From a virus, in IMG/VR virus record IMGVR_UViG_3300021085_002655, positions 1 to 37,510 of that record: a stretch of DNA of 37,510 bases. One strand, given 5' to 3'. Positions 2,690 to 37,400 of the stretch are shown here, one piece after another; within the stretch, counting starts at the first letter, position 1; the number at the start of each line of letters is the position of its first letter. Below the pieces are notes generated by a model, which was not told where the DNA came from, did not search any database, and was given only the letters and a program-made list of their open reading frames with translations. Both the position numbers and the translations under genes were made by a program.

Positions 2690-2736
2690 CGCCCCTCAGT
2701 TGGTCGGTTAGGGGCGCCCCTCAGTTGGTCGGTTAG
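2690..2736 (+). repeat. Tandem 22-base repeat, period 25
   Basis: CGCCCCTCAGTTGGTCGGTT plus AG occurs at 2690-2711 and 2715-2736. The second copy covers the stop codon of the PPK2 gene. The join creates the 12-base palindrome AGGGGCGCCCCT (2710-2721). A diverged third copy (GCGCCCCCTTATTTGGTCG) lies at 5439-5457. Confidence 0.85.
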
Positions 2737-3353
2737 CATTCCAGATTTTCAAGTGTAGAATTAAGGGTTGACAGCAGAGAAAATATCCCCTCTTCTTTGT
2801 TGTTGTAGTCGATCACATGCCAATCCGAATCGATAACATTTTCTTTTAATAATGTCATGCGGTCATAATACGAAAGCGCATTTTCATCATTAGCGGAAAA
2901 TTTCCAATAGGTCAATGGTGATTTTTTGCGTTTTTCAATACGCGCGCGCTGTTCGTTTTCATCAATCGAAAGCCAGAATTTAATTATATGCACGTTTCTG
3001 GATTTTTCCCAATCTTTGTGATCTTGAAGAAAATTAGTGAATTGCTTTTCAGAGCACCAATTATTCAGACGTTGAACCATAGCGCGTGAATACCATGATC
3101 GATCATAGAACACAATTTGGTTTTTTGTGGGCATTCTACGCGACCAGTACGAAAGCCATTTTTTCATTGTTGATTTGCTTGGCTTCTGGCTTAAATGCAC
3201 AGAGTAATGCTTCGGATTAAGGTAGTGTGTCACCTCGCGGATCGTGCTAGATTTTCCGGCAGTGTCGCGCCCCTCAAGTACAACGCAAATTCCTTTATGC
3301 GCTAAACCTTCCAGATTGTGATTAAGTTTCGCTTGCTCTTTTTTTATGCTCAT
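2733..3353 (-). CDS. ppk2: PPK2-family polyphosphate:nucleotide phosphotransferase
   Basis: PPK2 enzymes use inorganic polyphosphate to phosphorylate nucleoside mono- or diphosphates (or the reverse). The family hallmarks are present in order: Walker A in VVLEGRDTAGKSS (residues 24-36), the Walker B-like block FYDRSWYSR (82-90) and the lid region with RARIEKRKKSPLTYWKFS (137-153) followed by DENALSYYDRM. The 206-aa length is a little short of the usual 230-300 aa single-domain enzymes. The ATG at 3353 follows GAGGGG and overlaps the stop of a 37-aa membrane peptide as ATGA, making it the last gene of the operon from 5117-5144. In a phage it could convert host polyphosphate into nucleotide supply during replication; that role is inferred. 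The canonical EGRDAAGKGG loop is slightly altered (T for A, SS for GG). Confidence 0.88.
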   Translation of the reverse strand: MSIKKEQAKLNHNLEGLAHKGICVVLEGRDTAGKSSTIREVTHYLNPKHYSVHLSQKPSKSTMKKWLSYWSRRMPTKNQIVFYDRSWYSRAMVQRLNNWCSEKQFTNFLQDHKDWEKSRNVHIIKFWLSIDENEQRARIEKRKKSPLTYWKFSANDENALSYYDRMTLLKENVIDSDWHVIDYNNKEEGIFSLLSTLNSTLENLEC

Positions 3354-6081: not shown

Positions 6082-8487
6082 ATGTTTAAAAAGACATGTC
6101 AAACTGTCTTTCTTATGAGTGTCGCTTCTAGTGCATTCGCAATGGAAGAAGTCGTTGTAAAAGGCGACCTAGGCAGTTTACCCGGCGAACGTGTTGAAAG
6201 CGTCTTCGGATTTGAAAAATCAATTATAGATACACCCCGTTCCGCATCAACCATCAGTGAAGAGATGATGGATCGTTTTAATATGCAAGATATCGATGAA
6301 CTCGTAGCTCTTGCTCCAGGTACTTTCACTCAATCATTTTTCGGTGTTGCAGGTTCCTTAGATGTTCGTGGTACTGCTGGTGAGACTTACTTTCGCGGCA
6401 TTCGTCGTCTTGATAACCCCGGTAACTACCCTACTCCGATTGGAGCCTCTGATCGAGTAGATATCGTTCGAGGCCCTGCGTCTCCCATCATGGGGCCTTC
6501 AAAGATTGGTGGTTATCTCAACTTTAATCCAAAATCTGCTCGTATTGAAGAAACTGGTTCGTACATCGAGGAGCGTGTCGGAGAACTGTCTTACTCAGGA
6601 GGCAGCTGGGGCCGAAATGTTTTGACTGCAGAAGTTGGAGGTCCCGCAGCAATCGGTGGAAAACCTCTCGGCTACTACCTCTATGGAGAAATAGAGAATT
6701 CTGATAGCTTTTACACAAATGCACCCGGAGTGAGTCAATCTCTAGTACAAGCATCTTTTGACATGGACTTGAGTGACAATGTTCGAATTCAGTTTGGTGG
6801 TATGGTACACGACTACAAAGGTAGCCAAAACGCTGGCTGGAATCGTTTAACTCAAGATCTGATCGATACCGGTACTTACATTACAGGAACTCCAACCCCT
6901 CTTGATACTTCTGGCGATGGAGCTATTTCGCATGATGAGTACTATGCAGGAAACATTAATCCTTTTGCTTTGTATGCCTTCTTCGGACAGAAAGACATGG
7001 ATTTGGCAACTCTATCAGATGCCTCTTTCGGTTTTGATTATGAGAACTCAAATATGATTCTAGAGAACGTAGGAACTGCAATTCTTCCAATGTCGTCAAC
7101 GCTGATCGCTTCTGATGACTTACTGGAGAACAAGGTGAATACTCTCTACTTTGATATTGATGTTGGACTTGGCTCTTGGGATTTGACGAATAAGTTGTTT
7201 TATGAGTCATACGAGAACTTGAATGAGAATGCTTATGGATTCTCACAGTTTCACGACGCTTCTGTGATTGAGGATCAATTGATTCTTTCACGCGTCTTTG
7301 ATGGTGACTCTCTTACTACATCGATACAAATATCTCCTTCGATTCGACGAACTGAGTTTACACATGGAGATGACTACTACAATGAGTATTTTAGTCGACG
7401 TGATCTGACAGGGCCTTCAACTGCTCTTGACCGTCGAGTACTGGCAACTCGAATTGACTCAGAGTACAGCGAATACTATGTAGGTGAGTACACAAATCTT
7501 GGATTTGGTGTAATGGCTGACTTCGCACATGAGAGCGGTCTATCTCTTCTTTTAGGTGCACGTTATGATGTTATCGACATGGAGTCTACAACACCTGCGG
7601 GTAAGACACAGTCTGATTCAGCTTTTACTTCTTCGGAAGGTGGTGTTGATGTTGCTGTAAATAGTGCAACGGCTGAGCCTTCAGGAGTTTCCTGGTCAGG
7701 AAGCTTGAGTTACTCTATTGGAGGTTTCGTACCTTACGTTACAATGTCAGAGCAAAACACTGTGATTGCGGGTCAGGGATCTGAGCTACAGGTTGGCAAT
7801 GTATTTACGGGTAACGCCTTCGGATCTTCAGAGTTAATGGAGTATGGAGTGAAAGGTAGTCTACTAGACGATCGTTTATACTTTGCGGTATCTTCTTATG
7901 AAATGGAACGTACTGACTTTAATGCTCAGTCTATTACAGTAAACCAAGCGGTAAAGACAGAAGGTACAGAAGTTGAAGTGCGTTGGGCCGTAAACGAGAA
8001 GTTTCTTATGACATTCGGCTATAGCAATGTTGAAGCACTGATGTTGGCGACGATCGCTGCAGGCAGTGAATTCTCATTCCTAGGACAAGCAGATTTACCT
8101 TTAATCGATCCTACTTTGTTGTGGGGCGGTCAAGTTGGTGGTTTGATTCCTGTCGGACCGAGCGAAGGTGTTCGAGCTGGTATGCCTGAAACTATCATGT
8201 CTGTTACTGGTACTTACGACTTCGGTAATGGTATTGCTGTTAGTGGTAGCGTAGTTGATGTAGAGGCTGTAGCGTCTGGTCAGTCTTTCGCAGTTACCCT
8301 TCCCGCCTATACCCTAGTAAACTTAAGCATGAGCTACGAAGCTGATAACTGGTCTCTGATTGTTGCTGCAAAGAATGTTACTGATGAGCGTTACTTTCGA
8401 GCAAACTTCCCAGACCTCTTTGGAACCACAGTTGTTCTACCTGAGCTGCCAAGGCATTATCAGGCAAAAGTATCCTATCGTTTCTAA
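6082..8487 (+). CDS. TonB-dependent outer-membrane receptor (siderophore-receptor-like)
   Basis: A complete 801-aa TonB-dependent receptor. A signal peptide ends at SSAFA (16-20), followed directly by a TonB-box-like EEVVVKG (22-28). The plug domain spans about 45-155 with typical blocks: IIDTPRSASTISEEMMDRF, DELVALAPG, LDVRGTAGETYFRGI and DRVDIVRGPASPIMGPSKIGG. The remainder is a 22-strand barrel pattern, ending in AAKNVTDERYFRANFP and a C-terminal YRF, the outer-membrane insertion signature. Such receptors take up ferric siderophores, haem, vitamin B12 or carbohydrates with energy from TonB-ExbBD; the plug style resembles siderophore receptors but no substrate can be assigned. Residues 275-286 (DTSGDGAISHDE) match an EF-hand calcium loop, probably in an extracellular loop. 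It has its own consensus promoter, leader and terminator. Full length and intact, so probably functional. Very unusual in a phage. Confidence 0.93.
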   Translation: MFKKTCQTVFLMSVASSAFAMEEVVVKGDLGSLPGERVESVFGFEKSIIDTPRSASTISEEMMDRFNMQDIDELVALAPGTFTQSFFGVAGSLDVRGTAGETYFRGIRRLDNPGNYPTPIGASDRVDIVRGPASPIMGPSKIGGYLNFNPKSARIEETGSYIEERVGELSYSGGSWGRNVLTAEVGGPAAIGGKPLGYYLYGEIENSDSFYTNAPGVSQSLVQASFDMDLSDNVRIQFGGMVHDYKGSQNAGWNRLTQDLIDTGTYITGTPTPLDTSGDGAISHDEYYAGNINPFALYAFFGQKDMDLATLSDASFGFDYENSNMILENVGTAILPMSSTLIASDDLLENKVNTLYFDIDVGLGSWDLTNKLFYESYENLNENAYGFSQFHDASVIEDQLILSRVFDGDSLTTSIQISPSIRRTEFTHGDDYYNEYFSRRDLTGPSTALDRRVLATRIDSEYSEYYVGEYTNLGFGVMADFAHESGLSLLLGARYDVIDMESTTPAGKTQSDSAFTSSEGGVDVAVNSATAEPSGVSWSGSLSYSIGGFVPYVTMSEQNTVIAGQGSELQVGNVFTGNAFGSSELMEYGVKGSLLDDRLYFAVSSYEMERTDFNAQSITVNQAVKTEGTEVEVRWAVNEKFLMTFGYSNVEALMLATIAAGSEFSFLGQADLPLIDPTLLWGGQVGGLIPVGPSEGVRAGMPETIMSVTGTYDFGNGIAVSGSVVDVEAVASGQSFAVTLPAYTLVNLSMSYEADNWSLIVAAKNVTDERYFRANFPDLFGTTVVLPELPRHYQAKVSYRF

Positions 8488-8576: not shown

Positions 8577-8623
8577 GAGAAAAAATGAATTTTCCCAAGA
8601 ATAAAAATGGAGACATTTTATGA
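8577..8623 (+). promoter_or_regulatory. Shared leader element with a 12-codon upstream ORF
   Basis: The first 22 bases (8577-8598) are identical to 6018-6039. GGAG is 6 bases before ATG 8585, which opens the frame MNFPKNKNGDIL; its TGA (8621-8623) overlaps the start of the next gene as ATGA. The layout is that of a translated leader peptide coupled to the downstream gene. Confidence 0.68.
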
Positions 8624-9192
8624 AATACTTACTCGCATTTCTTGCGTTTTTTACTTTACCAGCTTTTGCTGAAATCAACGGCTCTGTAGGAGCAACATCC
8701 CAATATGTTTTTAGGGGTCTCTCTCAGGGTGAAGACCCTGCGTTGCAGGTAGGTATTACTGCTTCCTCAGAAAATTTTTATGTTTCTTTTTGGGCAAGCC
8801 AGGTGGACGTCGCTCGTGATGTACATACAGAAGCAAACTATGCTTTTGGCATAAAAGCGAAGGGTTTTGATGTTGGCGTTCTTCAGTATGATTATTATGG
8901 CGATGATCTCGAACTTGGTGATGAGAGTCGTGAAGTTTATGTAGGTTATGCGGCCGGTCCTTTCTCAGCGTATGCTTTTCAGGATATGGATACGAAAGAC
9001 AACTACTATAATATAAATGCAAGCCATTCATTCGATCTTGTAGATGTTTCAGTTTTTGCTGGACATGCAGAAGACTATGACCATGGAGGCGTGAAAGTTT
9101 CTCGCTCCTTTAATAAGTTCAATCTCGGTTATACCTTTGATTATAGACGTGATGCTTCGGAGCATTCGGTAGGACTTTTCTACAACTTCTAA
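8620..9192 (+). CDS. TorF/TIGR02001-like putative outer-membrane porin-like protein
   Basis: A 190-aa exported protein. The signal peptide MKYLLAFLAFFTLPAFA is cleaved after AFA (17). The mature start EINGSVGATSQYVFRGLSQG, in particular the SQYVFRGLSQ block, is the signature I associate with the TIGR02001 / TorF family of gammaproteobacterial outer-membrane proteins. About eight to ten amphipathic strands follow and the chain ends VGLFYNF, with the terminal phenylalanine needed for barrel insertion. It is shorter than the 220-250 aa usual for that family. ATG 8620 follows GGAG at 7 bases and is coupled to the leader peptide. It lies between two intrinsic terminators with its own promoter, so it is an independent unit. 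The function of this family is poorly known; transport or surface modification is possible. Confidence 0.78.
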   Translation: MKYLLAFLAFFTLPAFAEINGSVGATSQYVFRGLSQGEDPALQVGITASSENFYVSFWASQVDVARDVHTEANYAFGIKAKGFDVGVLQYDYYGDDLELGDESREVYVGYAAGPFSAYAFQDMDTKDNYYNINASHSFDLVDVSVFAGHAEDYDHGGVKVSRSFNKFNLGYTFDYRRDASEHSVGLFYNF

Positions 9193-13003: not shown

Positions 13004-13330
13004 ATGAAAAAAACAGAAGTACTAAAGACCTTAGTTGACTTCTTCCACGAACAAGGAAGAGTACTAAGAAAAACGGAATATTATAGACTAGGCGCAGACG
13101 TATGGCCTATCCATCCTAGACTTCTAACAAGATACTTTAGGGGCAGAGGTTATAACTCTATCCTTAAAACTGCACAACATATGTATCCGGCAGACTGGGC
13201 TTCAATCGGCACTGCGCCCGTTGAAGCTCCGAAGCCTGTTAAAAAGCCCGTTCTTGAACCGGCTTCAGAAGACGATCTTTCTCCTCTGGAGAAATTAAAG
13301 TCTTTAAAAGAAGGAGAATCAAGTGAATAA
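13004..13330 (+). CDS. 108-aa hypothetical protein between portal and protease-capsid genes
   Basis: A protein starting MKKTEVLKTLVDFFHEQGRV directly after the portal stop. The N-terminal 65 residues are basic and helical (RKTEYYRLGADVWPIHPRLL, RYFRGRGYNSILKTAQHMYP), resembling a small DNA-binding domain. The C-terminal part is proline- and acid-rich (APVEAPKPVKKPVLEPASED), likely flexible. It ends with GEGSSE-like codons overlapping the protease start by 8 bases. I do not recognise the family; a head-assembly or DNA-binding accessory role is plausible from position. Confidence 0.7.
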   Translation: MKKTEVLKTLVDFFHEQGRVLRKTEYYRLGADVWPIHPRLLTRYFRGRGYNSILKTAQHMYPADWASIGTAPVEAPKPVKKPVLEPASEDDLSPLEKLKSLKEGESSE

Positions 13331-15377
13331 GATTTTTCACATTGGCTCCACATTTAAAGCGTTTGAAGAAGGGGATGATCTTCATATCGCTGGTATGGCT
13401 AGTACTAATAGTACTGACCGTGTTGGAGATGTAATTGAGACTGAGGCCTGGACAAAGGGCGGACTTCAAAATTACTTAAACAATCCCGTAATTCTTTTTA
13501 ATCATGACTACAATCAGCCGATTGGCCGAGCAATTACGCTTGGTACGAACGACAATGGTCTGCAGTTAAAAGCAAAAATTGCTAAATCTGCTGGTCACGT
13601 AGGTGAATTAATTAAAGAAGGTGTCCTTGGAGCTTTTTCAGTCGGGTTTCGAGTCAAGGATGCGGAATATATGACCGAAACCGATGGATATAAGATTAAG
13701 GACGCAGAATTACTGGAAGTTTCAGTAGTAACGGTTCCTGCTAACCAAGCTGCAACCTTTTCTCTTGCAAAATCTTTTAACTCAGAATCTGAGTACGAAG
13801 AATTCAAGAAATCTTTCAAAACCGAAGATTCCGTGGAAGAAAAACACATACTTAATATTCAGGAAACTGAAGACAAAGTAACTGTTGAGTTTGAAAAACA
13901 TTCTGAAACCGAGTCAATGCCTAAAGACTTATCACAAGTCGAAGTACAGGAGAAAACTATGAGTGATATCGATATCGATGCGATTGTGGCTGCTGCTGTC
14001 GAAAAGACCGCAACTGCAATGGCAATGAAAGACGCTGAGCGCAAAGCAGAAGAGCAAACGCGATTGGAAGCAGAGCAAAAAGCTGCTGAAGACGCACAAG
14101 TTCAAAAAGCTGCTGAAGAAGCTCGCATTGTAACCGCTGTTTCCAGCGGTACAGAAAAATTAATGGCTGACGTTGAAGCTAAAATGTCTGAGAAAGAAGC
14201 CGACCATATGGAAGTTGTCAAGCAATTCGAAAAAGAATTGTCTGAGAAATCTGAGGAAATTCAGAAGATGCGTGACAGTAAGCGAGTATTCGCTGACCGT
14301 GGCGAAAAATCTAGTTTCACAGAAGACGACATGGTAAACGCGCATATTCTAGGTGTAGTTACTAACAAAGGATTAGAAGGTACCAAGTTTGGTCGTTCTA
14401 TTCTAGAGAAAGCTACTAATAATACTGCGGGTGTTCGTTTGCCTGCTAGTGCTAGTGATGACTTTGAAACTACTGTTTCAACTGCTATCGAACGTGACAT
14501 TGAGCTCGAGCTTGTTCTCGACCCTCTGTTCCGTAAGATTCAGATGAACGCTGCTTCAATGGTTATTCCAACTATGCCTGATTCAGGTTATGCAGAATGG
14601 CTTAGCGCTAACGCTGCTGGAACAGGCGCAGGCGCTGCTCCTAAAGGTAACCTGGGTTCACGTGATGAAGCTTCACCCGGCGCCAATGCTGGGGTTACTT
14701 TAGGATCTAAAGTATTGACCGTTGAGAAGTTGGTTTCTAAGTCTTTTATGGCTAACGAAACTGAAGAAGATGCAATTATGCCTGTTCTTCCTTTGATTCG
14801 CGAAGCTATGGTTCGTGCACATGCACGTGCTATTGAGCATTCAATCCTTCAAGCTGGCTCTTCTGAAGTAGTAAACGCTGGCGGCCAGAATGGTTTGATC
14901 AAGCTTGCTACTGATGACACCAAAGTACTTGACTCCGGCGCTTCTGCCGGTGCCTATGTAGCTACTACTGCTGCTTTGTTGAACATGCGTCAAGCAATGG
15001 GTAAGTATGGTCGTCGTCCGAGTGACGTAGTATATATTGTATCTTTGGATGCATACTACGATATGCTTGATGATCCAGAATTCCAAGACGTCAACCTCGT
15101 TGGAAGTGATCGCGCTACTAAGATCTCAGGCGAAATTGGTCAGGCTTACGGCTCACCAATCATCGTTTGTGACGAGTTCACTGGCGGAAAGACTGCTAAC
15201 AAGGTTTGGGGTGTTGCTGTTAATGCTCGTAACTTCTTGGTACCAGTACTTCGCGGTGTTACTGTTGAGTCTGACTATGAAGTCGCTAACCAACAGCGAG
15301 TTCTTGTTGCTACGCAACGTCGTGGTTTCGACCAGATGTTTGCTGCTGCTGGACAAGTTGTTGCGCACAAGTGGTAA
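13323..15377 (+). CDS. Prohead protease fused to major capsid protein (HK97 fold)
   Basis: A 684-aa fusion. Residues 1 to about 160 are an HK97-type (U35) prohead protease with ILFNHDYNQPIGRA (H61), GAFSVGFR (S106) and ELLEVSVVTVPANQAA (E132). Residues about 213-325 are an alanine/glutamate-rich coiled coil that should act as the scaffold (delta) domain. Residues about 330-684 are the capsid shell domain, with the late strands VWGVAVNARNFLVPVLRGV and VLVATQRRGFDQMF. The protein starts GTG with AAGGAG six bases upstream. A second strong ribosome-binding site inside the gene would yield capsid without protease (see separate entry). It is followed by a terminator-like hairpin. Protease-capsid fusions are known in some siphoviruses but are a minority arrangement. 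Confidence 0.9.
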   Translation: MNKIFHIGSTFKAFEEGDDLHIAGMASTNSTDRVGDVIETEAWTKGGLQNYLNNPVILFNHDYNQPIGRAITLGTNDNGLQLKAKIAKSAGHVGELIKEGVLGAFSVGFRVKDAEYMTETDGYKIKDAELLEVSVVTVPANQAATFSLAKSFNSESEYEEFKKSFKTEDSVEEKHILNIQETEDKVTVEFEKHSETESMPKDLSQVEVQEKTMSDIDIDAIVAAAVEKTATAMAMKDAERKAEEQTRLEAEQKAAEDAQVQKAAEEARIVTAVSSGTEKLMADVEAKMSEKEADHMEVVKQFEKELSEKSEEIQKMRDSKRVFADRGEKSSFTEDDMVNAHILGVVTNKGLEGTKFGRSILEKATNNTAGVRLPASASDDFETTVSTAIERDIELELVLDPLFRKIQMNAASMVIPTMPDSGYAEWLSANAAGTGAGAAPKGNLGSRDEASPGANAGVTLGSKVLTVEKLVSKSFMANETEEDAIMPVLPLIREAMVRAHARAIEHSILQAGSSEVVNAGGQNGLIKLATDDTKVLDSGASAGAYVATTAALLNMRQAMGKYGRRPSDVVYIVSLDAYYDMLDDPEFQDVNLVGSDRATKISGEIGQAYGSPIIVCDEFTGGKTANKVWGVAVNARNFLVPVLRGVTVESDYEVANQQRVLVATQRRGFDQMFAAAGQVVAHKW
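13959..15377 (+). CDS. Nested in-frame start: capsid plus scaffold without the protease
   Basis: Within the fusion gene, AGGAG (13948-13952) lies 6 bases before ATG 13959, an ideal initiation site in the same frame (Met213, MSDIDIDAIVAAAVEKTATA). Initiation here gives a 472-aa protein with coiled-coil scaffold and shell domain but no protease. This would supply the several hundred capsid copies per protease that HK97-like assembly needs. Predicted from sequence only. Confidence 0.65.
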   Translation: MSDIDIDAIVAAAVEKTATAMAMKDAERKAEEQTRLEAEQKAAEDAQVQKAAEEARIVTAVSSGTEKLMADVEAKMSEKEADHMEVVKQFEKELSEKSEEIQKMRDSKRVFADRGEKSSFTEDDMVNAHILGVVTNKGLEGTKFGRSILEKATNNTAGVRLPASASDDFETTVSTAIERDIELELVLDPLFRKIQMNAASMVIPTMPDSGYAEWLSANAAGTGAGAAPKGNLGSRDEASPGANAGVTLGSKVLTVEKLVSKSFMANETEEDAIMPVLPLIREAMVRAHARAIEHSILQAGSSEVVNAGGQNGLIKLATDDTKVLDSGASAGAYVATTAALLNMRQAMGKYGRRPSDVVYIVSLDAYYDMLDDPEFQDVNLVGSDRATKISGEIGQAYGSPIIVCDEFTGGKTANKVWGVAVNARNFLVPVLRGVTVESDYEVANQQRVLVATQRRGFDQMFAAAGQVVAHKW

Positions 15378-17881: not shown

Positions 17882-19270
17882 ATGGCTTTACAATTTACAA
17901 GAAACGCTACCGTATACGTAGAACTTCTAGACGCTAACGGCTACCATAAAAATGGCTGGCAGTTATCTGTTTTAGACGGTTTTTCGTTCACCCAATCAAT
18001 CAACTCTTCGGAAATCACAATCAACGAAGCAGGCTCCACCTCTCGTAGAGCTCGACTGCTTTTTAATGATAGTCTGGCTCCTGTAGAGTGGTCTATGAGT
18101 ACTTATGCGCGTCCTTTCACAGACTCTTCTAAAACAAGAGCACCTGAAGACGTTCTTTGGGCTATGTCGCTTGGAGCTAATGATTACAACAACACTACTA
18201 AAGTATTTTCTGGCACTAGTTCAAGTCCTGCAGTAAATGCTGTAACTAATGGTACGAATACTTTTAATTTTAACAACTCAAACGTTTCTTCTTTCTCCGA
18301 TAATTGGAATATCTATTTCGGTTTCGAAGACGGCACTAACATTCAATATTACAAACTACAGAGTTCTGTAGTTAACTCTGTTTCGATGGACTTTGATATT
18401 GATGGTATTGCAACTATCTCTTGGAGTGGTTTTGCAAAACAATTGGGAGATGAAAGCACTGTTAAACCCGGTTTTGTATTGCCGGTTGGGCAAGCTGTTA
18501 CGGGAGCCTCAGGAAATGGTTCAGTAGCTACCTTGACCGTTGGAGCTACTACAGGTTTCCGAGTAGGACAAAGAATCTATGTAGAAGGCATGAATCCTGC
18601 AGGCTATAACACAGCTACTTCAGGCAGTTTAAAAACTCCTGCAGGGGCCCTAATTACTGCTCTAACTTCCACAACCGTTTCTTACGCTAGTGCTGAAAAC
18701 GGAAGTTTCTCTTCTGGGGGCACATTAGGTAGTTTAAAAGCTGCTCAAGTAACTGCTGGAGAAGTGGTTATTAATACAGGATTGAATACAACAACTAATT
18801 TTATTAGGAATAGAATATCTACAGTTACCCTGCAAAATACAGCAGGCTCTTTAGACTACAATCTTGTGCTTACAGGAGGCAATTTAACCCTAGAAAATAA
18901 TATTAATTATCTCACTCCAGAAGAATTAGGCGTAGTAAACGCTCCTTTAGCTAATATTACTGGCGCACGAAGCATTAGTGGTAGTATGACTTGTTACTTA
19001 GACAATGATACCGCAGGAGAGAAGTCAGGCAAATTATTTGCAGACTTAGTCGCGGATACAACTACTATCAGAAATGTTTTTGATATGACACTTCAAATGG
19101 GAGGAACCTCAGCGGGCCCCAGAGTTTATCTGGATTTGCCGACTGCACATTTGGAAGTACCTACTATTAATGTCGAAGACTTACTTACCTTAGAGATTAA
19201 TTTCCACGGGCAAGTTAGCGGCGGTAACGTTGACCTAACAAACGAAGCAACTATTATATATAATAGCTAA
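17882..19270 (+). CDS. Tail tube protein 1 with an inserted beta domain
   Basis: A 462-aa protein starting MALQFTRNATVYVELLDANG. It shares with its neighbour (19282-20595) the blocks LSVLDGFSFTQSINSSEITI, RARLLFNDSLAPVEWSMSTY, the FDIDGIATI(S/A)WSGFAK core, FIRNRISTV, the NYLTPEELGVVNAPLANITG block and the C-terminal VEDLLTLE(I/V)NFHGQV. This is the beta-sandwich tube family where the same fold stacks as hexameric rings. Between the core and FIRNRISTV it carries an extra domain of about 100 residues (about 200-305) with GNGSVATLTVGATTGFRVGQ and VEGMNPAGYN, a motif style common in phage surface domains. Strong ribosome-binding site AGGAG. Highly expressed structural gene. Confidence 0.82.
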   Translation: MALQFTRNATVYVELLDANGYHKNGWQLSVLDGFSFTQSINSSEITINEAGSTSRRARLLFNDSLAPVEWSMSTYARPFTDSSKTRAPEDVLWAMSLGANDYNNTTKVFSGTSSSPAVNAVTNGTNTFNFNNSNVSSFSDNWNIYFGFEDGTNIQYYKLQSSVVNSVSMDFDIDGIATISWSGFAKQLGDESTVKPGFVLPVGQAVTGASGNGSVATLTVGATTGFRVGQRIYVEGMNPAGYNTATSGSLKTPAGALITALTSTTVSYASAENGSFSSGGTLGSLKAAQVTAGEVVINTGLNTTTNFIRNRISTVTLQNTAGSLDYNLVLTGGNLTLENNINYLTPEELGVVNAPLANITGARSISGSMTCYLDNDTAGEKSGKLFADLVADTTTIRNVFDMTLQMGGTSAGPRVYLDLPTAHLEVPTINVEDLLTLEINFHGQVSGGNVDLTNEATIIYNS

Positions 19271-19281
19271 GGAGAAATAAA

Positions 19282-20595
19282 ATGGCTTTACAATTTACAA
19301 GAAATGCTACGGTTTACGTAGTAGGTGGAGGAGCTGTTTGGCAGTTGTCAGTTTTGGACGGTTTTTCCTTTACTCAATCAATCAATTCTTCAGAAATTAC
19401 AATCAATGAAGCGGGTTCTACTTCTCGTAGAGCTCGACTGCTTTTTAACGATAGTTTAGCTCCTGTAGAATGGTCTATGAGTACATACGCCCGTCCTTTC
19501 AAAAGTTCTGGTAGTGTTCGCGCTCCGGAAGAAGCTCTCTGGGCTATGATGCTCGGTGCGACACATCATTCTTCGGGAGTTTTTAGGTCTTCTGCTTTTA
19601 CAGAAGTAACAAGTATTAATGTACATACAGCAGGATTACAACCTAAAGGTCCTATATATGAAATTACCACCGCAGGAAGCTCTGTTAATTGGACAGCTAT
19701 AGGAGCTTCGGCGGCTACTGCAGGAGCTAAATTTATTTACAATGGTGTAGCTATTACAGGTTCCGGAGGTGTAGTTACTGAAACTGATGAGATTAACCTA
19801 ATTACTACGGATGCTAGTAATGGTACTCCTTCGGACGCTTTTGAGGATGATAGAAACGTATTTAACCTATCTAAGTCAAACGTTTCTTCTTTTTCAGATG
19901 GATGGGATATTTATGTAGCTTTCGAAGACGGCAGTAATAAGCAATATTATAAATTAGCCGATTCAGTAGTTAACTCTGCTTCTATTGATTTTGATATTGA
20001 CGGTATTGCAACCATTGCTTGGAGCGGCTTTGCCAAAACTTTGACAGATGCTGGCACAAGCGCACCTAGTGCTATTACTTCTCCTACCCCTATTACGGGC
20101 GGACTGACCGATACGGATAACTTTATTCGTAACAGAATCTCCACGGTAAGATTAATAAATACAAGTGACTCCGATGCTTATACAGTAGTTCTTACTGGAG
20201 GCAGCTTCACTATCGAGAATAATGTCAATTATCTTACCCCAGAAGAACTAGGTGTAGTAAACGCTCCTTTAGCCAATATTACAGGGGCAAGAAGTGTGAG
20301 TGGCAGTATGACTTGTTACTTAGATAATGATATTTCAAATAGTAAATCTGGAGAATTATTTAAGGATTTGGTAGAGGATACAACAACCATTCGTAATACT
20401 CACTTACTCGAAGTAAATATAGGGGGAAGCTCAATAGACACTCCTAGGCTTCAGCTTACTATGCCTTCAGCGCACCTTGAAATACCTACAATTAATGTTG
20501 AGGATCTACTTACTTTGGAAGTTAATTTCCACGGACAAGTACAGGGCGGTGACGTAGATAAGACCAATGAAAGTCTTATAGCTTATAAGGCATAG
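19282..20595 (+). CDS. Tail tube protein 2, paralogue with a different insertion
   Basis: A 437-aa paralogue of the preceding gene, with the same first residues MALQFTRNATVYV and long shared blocks (see 17882-19270). It lacks the C-terminal-half insertion of its neighbour but has its own insertion of about 100 residues after the first third (about 95-195), containing INVHTAGLQPKGPIYEITTA and GVAITGSGGVVTETDEINLI. Only 11 bases separate the two genes, and AAGGAG precedes the ATG. Two tube proteins with separate decorations could alternate in the tube, form different tail segments, or one could be a minor/capping tube protein. It is the last gene before a promoter and terminator pair. Confidence 0.82.
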   Translation: MALQFTRNATVYVVGGGAVWQLSVLDGFSFTQSINSSEITINEAGSTSRRARLLFNDSLAPVEWSMSTYARPFKSSGSVRAPEEALWAMMLGATHHSSGVFRSSAFTEVTSINVHTAGLQPKGPIYEITTAGSSVNWTAIGASAATAGAKFIYNGVAITGSGGVVTETDEINLITTDASNGTPSDAFEDDRNVFNLSKSNVSSFSDGWDIYVAFEDGSNKQYYKLADSVVNSASIDFDIDGIATIAWSGFAKTLTDAGTSAPSAITSPTPITGGLTDTDNFIRNRISTVRLINTSDSDAYTVVLTGGSFTIENNVNYLTPEELGVVNAPLANITGARSVSGSMTCYLDNDISNSKSGELFKDLVEDTTTIRNTHLLEVNIGGSSIDTPRLQLTMPSAHLEIPTINVEDLLTLEVNFHGQVQGGDVDKTNESLIAYKA

Positions 20596-28440: not shown

Positions 28441-31400
28441 ATGAGCAAATTAAATTCTAACCCTACTCTTTCGGTTCATTTAGAGGAGAATCGTCCTTTT
28501 GTATACGCACACTTAGTAAAGTTTGAAAGACCTCTAAAAGAATGGGTAGCTCCAAATGCTGACGTGCTTTACAGCCAGAAAGCCTCTAGATACATGCATA
28601 TTACAGATGCTTCATACGTTATTGGGTATGATGATCTGTCTACGTATACCAGTCTAGCGGGTTTCGACGGTCGCACGCGTAATTATTCTCAAAACTATTA
28701 CCCTAATAAACTAATCAGCGTTGGTTCGGTTCAGGATTCCTCTGAGAATAAAGTATCAAATTTAAGTGTCACACTAGATGCAGGAGCTCTTGATGCCACT
28801 ATATATTCGGAGACAATAACTTTTACCAAGACTACAAGCCCTTCGGAGTATTTTTTAGAGGCACAGACTAGCCTGTCTGATGCAGGTTTTGCAGAGGGAG
28901 ATATTATAAGTTTAGTTTCCTCTAACAGCGGTATAAATTCTGGAACTAGGTATAAAATTCATTCGTTCAGAAATGAAGGTAAGAAAGTTCGTGTCACAGA
29001 GGAGACTTTTCCTTTTGGTACTTGGACGGAGACATCAAAAACCTATACTATTTCACAAGCAAGTACAGAGATAACCGCACTTACCTTAGATCAAAAAGCT
29101 GCTAATTTTGTAAACAGACAAGTATCTGTATTTAAAGCTTTTTTCTATGAAGACGAGCCGGGCGTATTTATAGGCAACCCTGTACGTCTATTTAGCGGTA
29201 TTATTACTGCTGCAAGTTATAAAGAAACTCCAGATAGAAATGCTACCATAACTTGGTCATGTAAAAGTCACTGGGGTGATTTTCAACAAGTACGTGGTCG
29301 TTTAGGAGCCGACGAATACCATAGAGCTTTAGATGGTGAAGGTAGGGCTAACGCCCAAGCTACTGTCAAACCTGAGTATGCTTCTGATAGAGGATTTCAG
29401 CACGCTAATAATGCTGTGAATATTATAGGCCTTTACAATACTACAGAAACTAAATTCAGAGAGATCTGGAGAAACAAGCTATTCGGCACTAAAAAACTTG
29501 AAGAATACGAAGAAGAGGTTGTAAACGAAGTCGATCTCCGGTTTAATTTAAGTGCAAAATATATACCTGTAGTTTACGGAGTTAGAAGATTGGGCGGAAC
29601 CCCTATCTTTGCCGACACTTCTTTAGACGCAAGCAAAGTTTATATTGCAGAAACTCTTGCCGAAGGCCCTATACAGGGTATACTAAATATGTATGTGGAA
29701 GACCAACCTTTGGTTTGTATTTCAGAGCAGGATTCCGCTGTACGAAGCTCTATAGCAGGTGGTTCCGGCGGTCTAACCTCTACGGGATCTACTGCTTGTT
29801 TTGGTAGGGCAGATTTAGGGCAAGTATTAGTAGGGGAATATACTGTAACTAGTGGTTTAACTAATTCCGCAGGCCGAGCTCTCGATAATCTTAGTTCTAT
29901 AGACTTAATTAGAGAAGCTGTACGTATAGGTCAGCAAGCCGCCGCCGCCGTTACTAGTGGCGGTCAATCTGCTGTAAATACTTCTTATAATACTGCAGCC
30001 TCTAATTTATATGTTTCAGGTCTCAACACAAATCTTAATGGAATAACGCATGATTACGGCGTTAATTTCGCTTCGCCTAATAATACAACCATAGAGTTTA
30101 AGTCAGGATTACCTAATCAACTAGCTTCTTCTTCTTTTGCAAATTTAGGGAAAAATGTTGACTTCAAACTACAATCAGATTACTATGGGGCAAACTCCGG
30201 AGCATATTATTGGGGAGGAGAGCACAGATTATTAGACACAGCCTATACTACTAGTATTTTTGAAATTTCTTCAGAGCAAACTACCGTACCAGAGATAGAC
30301 TATGTAATTCGGGGTTCAATGGTAGAATGTTTTAACTATGATGGAAGCTTTGGTAACATTGTTAACACTGAGAGCCACACTTGGTTTAATATAGGGGATA
30401 CCGTAGATCTAAACATTACAGTTAGTGGACAGACTGTCCCAGTAGTCTCAGATATTACTATTATAGACAAGTGGTTTTATTATGATTCTACTGGACAGAA
30501 AAACTATAGATTTCGTTGGGACCTAACTGCACAACAAGAATTCACTCTTAAGACTCACAAGACTTTTTGGATGGAGGATGATTCTTCTCATACCTGGACT
30601 ATGGCTACTTATGATTTTAAGGAAGGAGAGACACATTTTACTATAGATAGAGAGTTAAAACAGGAAGTCACTGCAGTTAGTAGCTCCGGAAGCTCTGATC
30701 TTACAGTTACTTTGGACACAACTAATAATGAATTTAACCATTCGACTCTAGGTAGCGATGCACGCGTCTCACTACTTACAGAAGTAGAAGTTACATCAAC
30801 AGACGAAACACATAGCGCTGCCCCAGATAATATTACAACTTCTATTACAAGTACTTCTACATTTACTACGCCTTCCACAAATTCAATGACTGTGACGAAC
30901 CAGGATACAGGAACTATTAGCGACGTCCTAGCTGTTGCCGATACTACTACTTTTGTAGTTGCTAAAAATAAAATAAGTTTAGCGGCAAACTCTAATTTAA
31001 GTGCAGCATCTATTTCATCGGGGAAAACAGTTATTATACGTAAGAATGATACTGGCAGTAATATAACTGAAATTACAAGAACTGTTACTTCATATGATTC
31101 TACTGGAAGAATATTAACAGTAGCTCCCGATTTGGATGATGGTGAGATTCCCGCCGCCAACGATACTATAACGATCTTAGGTACTCAAGAAGGTAGAGAT
31201 CTTCGTCCCACCACTAACTTCGCTCTTATGATGTACGACTATCTTCGTAACAAGAGATATGGGGCAGGACTTTCCACAGATAAGTTAGACCATAGTAGTT
31301 TTTTACATGCAGGACGAGTTTGCGATACTACATCAGATATAACAGTTACTGTATCTCTAACTGCAACACACTTATCTAGCTTAGCTGTGGGACAAAAATA

Positions 31401-34400
31401 CACTTATTCTCCTACTATAAGCGGAGTAGACCGTTTCAAATGGCAGGGAGTAGTAAAAGAAATCAGAGTAATTACTACTACTAATACTACTGCAACTGCC
31501 ACTATAGTTTTTGGTTCTTGTGTAGGAAAACTAACCAACAAGTTTAATAAAAACAGGCAGAGAGCTGCGGGAGACGTTGTTTGGGATACCGGTGCCCTAC
31601 AAACAAGCAAGGTTAGTACTGTAGGAACTCAAGACACAATAACCGACAATGCTACTGCAATAACTGCAATCGGCTTAAGCCCTCCCGGCACAGCAGCCAC
31701 AGCAGATAATACTTTATCTATAACATGTGTGGCAGGTACTAATCCTGTTAGTAATTATAGTTTGTATGATTCTGACTTCGTGACTTACTGGAAGTACTTA
31801 GGGTGGGATTCCCCAGATCAGCGGTGGGTCACTAGGCATCAAGGTAATGTTTTAATAGATACTTCCCAACCTGTCTTTAATGTTATAGGGGGCTTACTAG
31901 ATCATTTTAACGGTATTTTATCTTTTCAAGACGGTAAATTTCGTCTAGAAGTAGAAACAAAAAGAGACCCAGATTCTGATTTATGGTGGAACTTCTTAGA
32001 CTCTTCACAGGGTTGGGCTACCGAACAGGGTACTCTAACTGCTTCAGAAGATTTCGCTAGCGTAACTAGCCCTGTAGCCAACACTGTGGGAAAGATAGTA
32101 AAAACTGGGGTGGACTTTCTTGGCTCTCTTAATTCTGTCGTAAGAGCGCGAATAAAGAAACGTACTGGTGGAAGCTCCTGGACAGGAGAACTATACTTTT
32201 CCACCTTTAGTCCATTTGGGACTACCGGACACTCAAAAACTATAGCTCAGCCTACAAGCTTAGACTCGTTCGAATGGACTACAGTATCTTGGGATATGTC
32301 TAGTAACACCCTTTGGAATACTAGATATATTACCGGATTAAAATTAGAGTTAGGAATTGACTTTGATGTAGAGTGGATTTCTGTAGGATCAGGACAGCGA
32401 GTAGTAGAGGCCGAAGACATTGTAGGCAGTATCAATTTAAAGGATCAGGGCTTATCAAAAGCGTTTAATTCTTTGTCTGCTAGCATAATTGATCCAGGTA
32501 ATAATTTTAATAATCGTTCTGTATCTTTCTTTAACTCAGACTATCTGAAACAAGACAGGGGTGTAGTTCGTTCAGGATCCTACAAGCTAGAGGGTATAAC
32601 CAATTATTACAATGCTAGATTAGCTGTAGAGCAGACTCTTAATAAGTCTCGATTTGCTAGAAAAATATCCTTCACCCTACGCCCAGCTGGACTCGCTCTT
32701 AGTCCTGGGGAGTTGATACGTGTAAAATACCCTAGATTTGGTTGGGACTCAGGAAAGTATTTCCGTATTGAATCACTAACGTACCAAGAAGACTGCTTAG
32801 TGAGCGTAGTAGCTTTAGAACATGATGATTCTATTTATTTTATCGACGCCGCTAAAGTAAGCCCTTATTCAATAGAGCGAGAGCGAGAGGCAGTCACTCG
32901 TGTTCCTGTAGCTCCTAGCAATTTGAGCGCTACTACAGACCTTCTTAACGGTGTATTACTGACCTGGTCTAAAGTAGCAAATTTAGGCCCCTCTGCAAAA
33001 TATGAAATTTGGAGAGGCACAACAAGTGATGGTGCAGACAGGGTTCGACTGTCTCCTGGAGTAGTTGAACATACTGCGGGAACAGCGACACAGGCCACCT
33101 ATTTCGATGCTTTTACTCCTTCTACCGAGACTAGTTTTTACTACTGGGTAAGAACTAGAACCGCTGTTGGTGTACAAACAACTTCCGGAGCACGAAGAAA
33201 CGAATATTTTAGTACGTTTGCAGGGCCTGCTCAAGGTACTACAGTGGGCGGAATTAATAACTATACTCTTGCCATATACAAGAAAACCAACTCTAGTGTT
33301 GCTCCTACTGCTCCCACCAATAACCCTGTCTATACTTTTAGCACAAATTCGTTATCTGTAGCTTTTAACAATGGCTGGACAAGGGATATCCCTAATAATA
33401 CGGATAACTATATATGGAGAATCGAGCAGCATCTAACAACAACTACAGATACTGTAACTGTAGGAAACTGGGATGCCGCATCCTTATTTGCAAAAAATGG
33501 AGACAGCGGTGCCAGTGTCAATATCATATTTACTAGAAGCGCCACGAAACCTAACCCTCCTAGTGCTAGTGCGGCGCCTGTGGCTCCTTGGTACGATAAT
33601 CCTCCCTCAGGTACGGGTATTCTGTGGGCAAGTAAAGGGGTAAGAGGAATTACGGAGACAAATTTTACTTGGGGAGCTACATATCAAGTAGAAGGTACTT
33701 CTGTAGTTGAGGTTGCTGTTTACAAACTAAACGACACTACTACTCCTACGGGAGGTTCTTATAATTTTACTACTAATTCTCTGACTACTACGGGACTTAC
33801 TACTGGCTGGGCTCAGACAATACCTTCAGGGTTTGGTAATGGAGACTCAATCTATAAATCTCTAGCTTTGTTTGTAGGGGGTCCGGAAGACACGGCAGCA
33901 ACAGCTACCTGGAGCACCCCCGCTGTTATTGCTTTTAGGCAAGACGGTTCAATCGGAAATGATGCCAAAACAGTAAAACTAACCCCTAGTTCCCATGTAA
34001 TTGATTACGCTACAGACGGATCAGAAAACTCTAGCATTACTTTCACTACGAGAACTCAAAGTATTACTGGTACGCCTAAATTTAAGTTTTTAGTTGGCGG
34101 CGTACAAAAACAGTATACAACCTCGGGAAGTTTTACGCTACATGAGGACGATGAACCCAGTATTGGAGGAAAGGTAGAAGTAGAAGTAGAAGTAAGAGAA
34201 AATGCCAGTCCAGACACTTTACTAGCAACGGATACTGTAACCATACACACTGTGCAAGATGGATCAGATGCTATACTGGGATTCCTAACTAATTCTAGTC
34301 ACACTGTTCCATCTTCGTCCACAGGAACTTTAGCGTCCGGAGCCCTTAACAGCGCTGGCGGCATCTTCCAAGTTAGGGTTGGGAGCGTAGATGTAACCTC

Positions 34401-37400
34401 TTCCTGTACCTTTGCAGTTTCGGGAAGCCCTTCAAATATAGGCATCAGTTTTCCTTCAAATAGTCCTGTAGATGGGGAATACATAGTTACTTCTCTTACT
34501 GCGAACTCTGCTACGGCGACTTTGCAAGCAACAATCCCTGCAGCGACCGCAGGTACCTCAGGGGATATAACCGTCACAGCAATTTACAGCATCTCCAAGT
34601 CTCTTAAAGGAGAGCAAGGAGATGCTTCACCGACAGTACGTATTACTGCAAATTACTATGCTATTACCTATGCTCCCGGAGGAGGAAACCCATCACCTAA
34701 TGCTGTAATTCTAACGGCAAGTGCTTTGGGGAGTATAACCAGTCCCTACTTTAAGTTTACTGGCGACGGCATAACAGATGAAACGTCTTTTACTGCTGCT
34801 CCTGGAGGAGCTAGCTCTAAAACCAAATCAGTTAACATACCTTCCACCTATTTTAGTACAGCATATAATTTAAGGGTGGGCGTTTCTGACGGAGACCAGA
34901 ATGAGTTAAGTTTTGATACTCTCTCTATATCAGGTTTACGGCCAGGTAGTGTGGGAGAATCCGCCGCAGAATTAAAACTATATTATTCAGGAGCTTATAA
35001 TACCACTTTTCCAAGCGGAGGACCAACAGGTGTAAGTTATAGTTTTTCAACAGGCTCAATGTCGAATATTCCATCGGGGTGGTCTACAACACCTCCTGCG
35101 GCAAGTATATATTCAGTGATTTTGGCCTCTACAGCTTTTGTAACAGGCACGGGAACCGCTACAAATATATCTTTTACTGCACCCGGTATCGAAATAGCAG
35201 GCCAGTCTCTTGTAAACTATATATTTAAAAGATCTGCAAGCAAACCCAGTACTCCTGCCGATACTACTCATCCTAATGTTCCCTCTACGTGGTATGACGA
35301 TGTAGACAATGTTCCCGCAGGAACAAACCCTCTTTGGGTGGCTAGAGGTCAAAGTACTGTAACAGGGCTTGGAGCGAATTTTACTATAAACTGGGTTACT
35401 AACTGGAGTGCTCCCACGCAAATAGAAGGGCGTGACGCAGCTACTGTAATACTGACTAATGAAGCGCATACAGTACCTACGTCTGCAGCGGGTACTAGTG
35501 TAATGACCGGTTCAGGTACAGATATATTAGCTTATATAGGTCCCCAACCAGTCCCTTATGATAATACCAGTCCATATGCTTCTCCTTCTTTTAGAGTTTC
35601 TGCCTCTGGCAGTAATATTACTCCGGGAGCGATCTCAGGATCGAGTAATACAGCAACTATAGCCGACCATAGTTCTATGAATGCGGATTCAGCTAGTATT
35701 ACTTACACTATAACAGTAGTTAATACCAAAGGGCAGGCCGAAACTTACACTAAGCTACAGACGTTTTCCAAAGCAAAAGAAGGCCAGGAAGGAATACAAA
35801 ACGTAACTAAAGAGATCTTTTATGGCTTAGCTTCAAGCACCGCACCTACTACACCTAGTGCCACTAGCTATACTTTCTCTACAGGCGCTTTTGCAGGTTT
35901 AAGTGCGAACTGGTCTACTACGCCTACGCCTATTACAGGTAGCAACGCCAACAATTTCTGGAAAGCAGTAGTAACAGCAGTAGAGAATACAAACGCTTCC
36001 GGAGTTTCTTCTGGAAGTAACCTAACTTTTAGTGCCGCTACAAGATTACTCTCAGGTTTTGGGGATGTTGTAGACAAAGATGAAAGCGACATTGACATAG
36101 ACCATCTGGAAGATCCTAATAATGTTCGTCTACATGCAAGTTATGCAGGGCAAGGATTAAATTCTCAAGGCCACTTAACTGGAGCTATTAATAGCGGTGG
36201 TACCTTATTCACTGCCGATGAAGCTATAAGTATTAGGGGCGGTTTTACAAATCTTAGCACGACCCCATTACTAAATGTAGTCAATGCTGCGGCTGCACTA
36301 AGAAATGTTAATACTTCTGCAGCTCAAGTAGGATTAGGCAGCGTATCTGACATTACTACTGCTCAGATGAGACAAGGTACTAGTAAGGCTGATGTAGGTC
36401 TCAATTTAGTAGATAATGCATCTGGAGCTACTATTCGTCAAAGTATAGTTATTAATGCACAAACAGGTGTAATAACTGGAATAGGTACAGGTAACTCTAC
36501 TGCAATTGGTAACTCGTTTACTACAAAAACTCAAGTAGGTCTAGGTAGCGTATCTGACATTACTTCTGCTCAAATGAGACAAGGTACTTCTTCAACGGAT
36601 GTAGGATTAGGCAGCGTATCTAATATTACTTCTGCTCAAATGAGACAGGGTACTAGTAAGGCTGATGTAGGTCTCAATTTAGTAGATAATGCATCTGGAG
36701 CTACTATTCGTCAAAGTATAGTTATTAATGCACAAACAGGCGTAATAACTGGAATAGGTACGGGTAACTCTACTGCAATTGGTAACTCGTTTACTACAAA
36801 AACTCAAGTAGGTCTAGGTAGCGTATCTGACATTACTACTGCTGCTATGAGACAAGGTACTTCTTCAACGGATGTAGGATTAGGCAGCGTATCTAATATT
36901 ACTTCTGCTCAAATGAGACAGGGAACTTCTGCAACCGATGTGGGTCTAGGTAACGTAACTAACGAAGCTAAAGCTACAATGTTTGCAACACCTACTTTTA
37001 CAGGAACTGTAGTAGGAGTTTCAGCTACGCATGTAGGATTAGGTAGCGTATCTAATATTACTTCTGCTCAAATGAGACAAGGTACTTCTTCAGCCGATGT
37101 AGGATTAGGCAGCGTATCTAATATTACTTCTGCTCAAATGAGACAAGGTACTAGTAAGGCTGATGTAGGTCTCAATTTAGTAGATAATGCATCTGGAGCT
37201 ACTATTCGTCAAAGTATAGTTATTAATGCACAAACAGGCGTAATAACTGGAATAGGTACGGGTAACTCTACTGCAATTGGTAACTCGTTTACTACAAAAA
37301 CTCAAGTAGGTCTAGGTAGCGTATCTGACATTACTACTGCTGCTATGAGACAAGGTACTTCTTCAACGGATGTAGGATTAGGCAGCGTATCTAATATTAC

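Follow-up and report, generated by a model that had tools for sequence, protein, structure and literature searches.

A conserved, predicted start site nested within the fused protease-scaffold-capsid gene of a large group of T5-related phages

Within gene C of phage lambda lies an internal start from which Nu3 is made. A shorter assembly protein that lacks the protease is encoded by the downstream portion of gene C, as is also predicted for the gene described here. Lambda differs in that Nu3 comprises only the scaffold, the capsid protein being encoded by a gene of its own, whereas in the present gene the nested product would comprise both scaffold and capsid. A second arrangement of this kind is found in herpesviruses, where UL26 (protease-scaffold) and UL26.5 (scaffold alone) are nested in frame and 3′-coterminal, as here; unlike the gene considered below, UL26.5 has its own promoter and transcript, and the herpesvirus fusion lacks a capsid domain (PMC2949831, in part). 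In phage T5 the protease pb11 and the capsid precursor pb8 are homologous to the protease and delta-capsid parts of our fusion and occur in the same order. The first shell of T5 is built from 775 copies of pb8, from which the scaffold domain is cut off by pb11 (PMC5292684, in part). In other heads, too, capsid subunits far outnumber the proteases, for which values of about 60 per 415 capsid subunits (HK97) and of about 90 per shell (D3) are given (PMC12749128, in part).

Genes that, like the one studied here, unite all three functions have been published for small actinophages (Microbacterium cluster EE, Arthrobacter, Gordonia and Rhodococcus RRH1) (PMC7302621, in part) and for phages resembling Pseudomonas phage MD8 (PMC8508860, in part). 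The protease of MD8 matches Clp protease, whereas that of our fusion belongs to S78. The available parts of the actinophage account (PMC7302621) and of the MD8 account (PMC8508860) make no mention of an internal start, nor was one in a protease-capsid fusion found among titles and abstract beginnings of the literature (open-licence and a few subscription journals). Fusion and nested start are each known separately; their combination is, at the level of these titles and abstract beginnings, new. A fused protease-capsid gene has the apparent flaw that it provides one protease per shell subunit, and by means of a conserved internal start such phages could reduce the amount of protease.

The window, by which we mean the whole stretch of DNA analysed, comprises the 37,510 bases of a virus record. 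Its fused head gene is an open reading frame on the plus strand (13323–15377) with a GTG start and 684 codons for a protein of 684 amino acids (74.1 kDa). Family, model and cleavage-site evidence together give the domain order protease, linker, scaffold (delta) and capsid. The S78 prohead protease domain (residues 22–149; 13386–13769, plus strand) is the only Pfam match in the protein (Peptidase_S78, PF04586; E = 9.4e-19, 68.6 bits vs. a cut-off of 21), and PHROG 80 (head maturation protease) matches the same N-terminus. H61 and S106, which we take to be the catalytic His and Ser of the S78 protease, are invariant in 38 relatives. A variable, mostly disordered linker of approximately residues 150–212 (13770–13958, plus strand) follows, residues 165–219 being predicted as disordered (pLDDT below 50). 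The scaffold domain (residues 213–363; 13959–14411, plus strand) is recognized by alignment to the capsid precursors of T5-like phages and, in a structure model of moderate quality (mean pLDDT 64), by long helices predicted at residues 218–290 and 295–327.

The capsid domain (residues 364–684, 33.9 kDa; 14412–15374, plus strand) has the T5-related HK97 fold, as indicated both by sequence profile and by the modelled fold, again at a mean pLDDT of 64. PHROG 267 (major head protein) covers residues 464–672, a profile of 38 relatives matches the PDB entries 8ho3 (E = 3.5e-80), 8zvi and 5tjt, which are DT57C/T5 capsids, and the top Foldseek matches of the fusion model are likewise the capsids of DT57C and T5. 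The mature T5 capsid chain, as seen in the solved structure 5tjt, begins with AVNQSSS; by alignment this N-terminus maps to the K363-A364 junction (14409–14414, plus strand), which is therefore the predicted maturation cleavage site. K363 is invariant in 11 aligned relatives. The initial annotation had located the open reading frame and, at 13948–13961, a ribosome-binding site with ATG between protease and scaffold; the coordinates are correct, and the placement of the domains is borne out by Pfam, PHROG, pLDDT and the matches to T5-type capsids.

The internal Shine-Dalgarno sequence AGGAG (13948–13952, plus strand) is followed by AAAACT, that is by 6 nt, and then by the ATG at 13959–13961, which is in frame and is codon 213 (Met213). 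Initiation there would yield a scaffold-capsid precursor of 472 amino acids and 50.6 kDa (13959–15377, plus strand). An in-frame internal start with a Shine-Dalgarno sequence after the protease domain is thus present as in C/Nu3. The nested scaffold is not separate from the capsid protein, since the frame runs through the capsid domain, and therefore we consider the gene C/Nu3-like in its predicted mode of working without classing it as a member. It should be noted that the window gene on its own does not prove the site: when its synonymous codons were shuffled, the corresponding stretch of 90 codons contained an ATG with an equally good Shine-Dalgarno sequence in 14% of cases (p = 0.14), and a proof from this gene alone was given up for that reason.

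The evidence that carries the argument is comparative. Three scans of viral contigs, each represented by its best 80 relatives (of 115, 585 and 549, respectively), and one scan of genome contigs provided 233 fused sequences including that of the window. One sequence from a metagenome-assembled genome (L161), in which the frame is disrupted, was excluded from every count. The 232 coding sequences kept, of which 215 are distinct (L002 and L038 repeat the sequence of the window), consist of a first set of 152 and of a later batch of 80 loci that was obtained with a different query and was not used to form the hypothesis, although two of its members (L263 and L264) are identical to one of the first set (L162). 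The fused group stems from environmental samples, which, judging from named metagenome bins and general appearance, are probably largely marine. The junction is without a stop codon in 232 of 232. The exact arrangement GGAG, 6 nt, ATG is found at the junction in 229 of 232 (149/152 in the first set and 80/80 in the later batch), and a GGAG located 5–9 nt before a start codon within the linker in 231 (151/152 and 80/80), the limits of the linker having been fixed on the first alignment after its inspection. The three exceptions to the exact arrangement are L125 and L129, with GGAG at 9 nt, and L164, which has only AAGGA at 7 nt. Outside the linker there are 5 GGAG-start sites in 92,259 codons of the first set and 5 in 48,813 codons of the later batch, i.e., 10 in a total of approximately 141,000 codons.

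This constancy is found in the most variable part of the fusion protein. Among 20 representatives the mean pairwise identity of the linker (residues 153–206) is 0.22, whereas the protease reaches 0.67, the capsid 0.48 and the scaffold 0.40. The internal ATG is preceded by 49 different 12-mers. Together the sequences indicate that the conserved nested start in the fused head gene of this large T5-related phage group is real.

In T5-like phages the two functions are encoded by two genes, whereas the phage of the window has one fused gene. A tblastn search of 50,697 phage records gave 1,013 records with a match, all below 60% identity, and the best 60 of these 1,013 are T5-like phages, mostly annotated with separate protease and capsid genes. 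Protease and capsid genes are separate in all eight T5-like phages that were read, and in all eight the initiator methionine of the standalone capsid gene aligns with Met213. For example, in Pantoea phage AAS21 the stop codon of the protease gene overlaps the start codon of the capsid gene by one base, and the sequence GAGGA is contained within the last protease codons. This arrangement shows how little is needed for a fusion, and we infer that the fusion came about by this route: in a T5-like phage, neighbouring genes for protease and capsid precursor would have merged into one reading frame, inside which the ribosome-binding site and the ATG of the capsid gene would have been retained. This is a likely way from two genes to one without loss of independent expression. 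In a tree of the capsid domain with 33 fused sequences (a subset of the first 152) and 8 split ones, each group lies on one side of a single branch with a support of 100/100, so that one fusion event suffices. Members with split genes inside the fused clade were not encountered among the loci read (best 80 of 115, 585 and 549).

A signal kept at fixed spacing in a linker that turns over, together with an ATG located at the standalone capsid start, strongly supports the view that the gene has two products. In this respect the initial annotation, which had proposed two products from one gene, is supported by the comparative evidence. Its description of the shorter one as capsid alone has to be amended, since this product would be scaffold plus capsid.

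Conservation of the site could also have its reason in the protein, if Glu210 and Met213 belonged to a motif for cleavage or recognition at the protease-scaffold boundary. Indeed, both residues are invariant in 38 aligned relatives. Such a motif would leave the Glu free to be encoded by GAA and the preceding codon free to end in any base, yet NNG-GAG is found in 149 of 152 sequences. Among these 149 sites, seven codons are used ahead of GAG, namely CAG (76), ATG (29), ACG (25), AAG (15), GAG (2), CCG (1) and TTG (1), which encode seven amino acids (Q, M, T, K, E, P and L). Both the GAG and the G that ends the preceding codon are given by the definition of the site; what we regard as telling is that 149 of 152 sequences conform to this definition through seven amino acids in a family in which only 14% of the codons end in G and 30% of the Glu codons are GAG (70% GAA). 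Moreover, the site is lost in shuffles that preserve the protein. GGAG-6 nt-ATG was observed in 18 of 20 representatives vs. a mean of 2.5 and a maximum of 7 in 200 shuffles, and in 67 of 70 representatives vs. a mean of 11.4 and a maximum of 22; in the later batch GGAG 5–9 nt before ATG was observed in 17 of 17 vs. a mean of 3.1 and a maximum of 7 in 100 shuffles. Because the homologues are related, the counts are not independent events, and the figure for the 20 representatives, which share less than 70% identity, is the fairer one. A protein motif is therefore a very improbable explanation. The residue after the internal methionine is Ser in 143/149 (first set) and 73/80 (later batch), and in the first set this Ser is encoded by both Ser codon families. 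Serine after methionine is expected for a free N-terminus from which the methionine is removed, and the residue would thus suit such an N-terminus.

Two further explanations dispense with a second product. It has been published that ribosomes may pause at Shine-Dalgarno sequences inside genes, and a pause giving the protease time to fold ahead of scaffold and capsid, with no new initiation, would be well placed at a domain boundary inside a disordered linker. A pause needs no ATG, yet 229 of 232 sequences have an ATG at a distance of exactly 6 nt, and outside the linker these genes contain hardly any pairs of GGAG and start codon, which makes this explanation just as improbable as a protein motif. 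Only marginally better, and still highly unlikely, is the view that the site is a relic of the formerly separate capsid gene that no longer matters, only the full fusion being made and cut. This would agree with the position of Met213, which coincides with the standalone capsid start, and self-release of the protease could supply the capsid precursor without a second start. A relic is, however, expected to decay, yet the site is found in 231 of 232 sequences despite a linker identity of 0.22 among the 20 representatives, and the amino acids near it change in ways that preserve GGAG and its spacing.

The start of the full-length product was considered, too. In the window its Shine-Dalgarno sequence AGGAG (13312–13316, plus strand) lies 6 nt before the GTG at 13323, and the string AGGAGAATCAA recurs upstream of the start in many relatives. 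In 110 rows the median Shine-Dalgarno energy is −7.4 kcal/mol at both the full-length and the internal start; the other 42 of the 152 rows are truncated or are without the motif by which the start is found, and in 20 rows another codon stands at the expected place. In the 90 readable rows the full-length start codon is ATG in 38, GTG in 29 and TTG in 23 (GTG/TTG 52/90), with median energies of −5.7, −7.4 and −8.7, respectively, vs. −7.4 at the internal start. Because the Shine-Dalgarno sequences are equally strong overall and the start is ATG in 38 of 90 rows, a weaker upstream start is not general, and we abandoned it as a rule. Unusual accessibility of the internal site was also dropped, the mRNA structure near the internal ATG being reduced only a little in comparison with other places (mean z of +0.46; 42 of 69 above zero).

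We consider it very probable that the nested start works in a C/Nu3-like manner, yielding a scaffold-capsid precursor in addition to a full fusion that brings the protease into the shell. Initiation at the GTG at 13323 would give the 74 kDa protease-scaffold-capsid fusion and initiation at the ATG at 13959 the 51 kDa scaffold-capsid precursor. The two chains could co-assemble in one procapsid because the scaffold and capsid domains are common to both. The fused subunits would carry the protease covalently inside the shell, the remaining subunits being plain; after closure the protease would cut behind the scaffold (K363|A364) and free itself, so that all mature capsid subunits would be alike. 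A protein that is perhaps the principal component of the head would then be overlooked when such fusions are annotated. The initial annotation had suggested that different amounts of the two products could solve the stoichiometry problem of a fused protease; such a difference is conceivable, with a full-length start that is not clearly weaker than the internal one, though it is GTG or TTG in 52 of the 90 readable rows. More tentatively, and on balance rather doubtfully, the nested start may set a fixed protease to capsid ratio in a self-dosing shell, in which a fused minority takes ordinary lattice positions and the protease is packaged covalently without a separate encapsidation signal; the same solution might then have been found independently in other fusions, e.g., in those of small actinophages.

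For comparison, 17 actinophage fusions (L165–L173 and L255–L262) and that of MD8 were inspected. By eye, most of these fusions have an ATG with some Shine-Dalgarno sequence after the protease. For example, RRH1, GMA5, Rahul and McGonagall have the pair in the corresponding position, immediately behind the protease; in Emperor, SallySpecial and EricDab it is found before the protease domain instead, and in these three the annotated starts may be misplaced. In 2 of the 18 fusions the test region has no ATG with a Shine-Dalgarno sequence, and synonymous shuffles of the remaining 16 gave a combined p of 0.60, the protease ends having been set by motif and partly by hand. The claim of an internal start was therefore not extended to other fusions. 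Scans of viral contigs found no further relatives of the actinophage fusions. The MD8 family was represented by MD8 and 79 of the 80 loci fetched, L236 having been dropped as truncated. The methionine is present in 14 of the 14 distinct site sequences examined, but the surrounding amino acids are conserved, too.

Several other genes of the window deserve mention. On the minus strand, opposite to the structural genes, a homologue of polyphosphate kinase 2 is encoded at 2733–3353 (PF03976, E = 9.7e-41). Following a gene for a T5 pb9-like distal tail protein, an open frame of 3,023 amino acids (28441–37509, plus strand) runs off the end of the contig, where the record must therefore be incomplete. 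Two genes for major tail proteins are arranged in tandem at 17882–19270 and 19282–20595 (plus strand); their products share 49% identity and diverge in the middle, whereas the ends are almost the same. Finally, a protein of 801 amino acids with a TonB-dependent receptor plug domain is encoded at 6082–8487 (plus strand), just upstream of an outer-membrane-like Gcw_chp protein (8620–9192) and of the terminase genes. Relatives of the plug-domain protein occur in 25 viral contigs, four of which also carry the fused head gene, and its gene therefore seems to be a resident of the phage genome. Such receptors are used by T5-like phages to enter their host cells, which makes a phage-borne copy of a TonB-dependent receptor curious.
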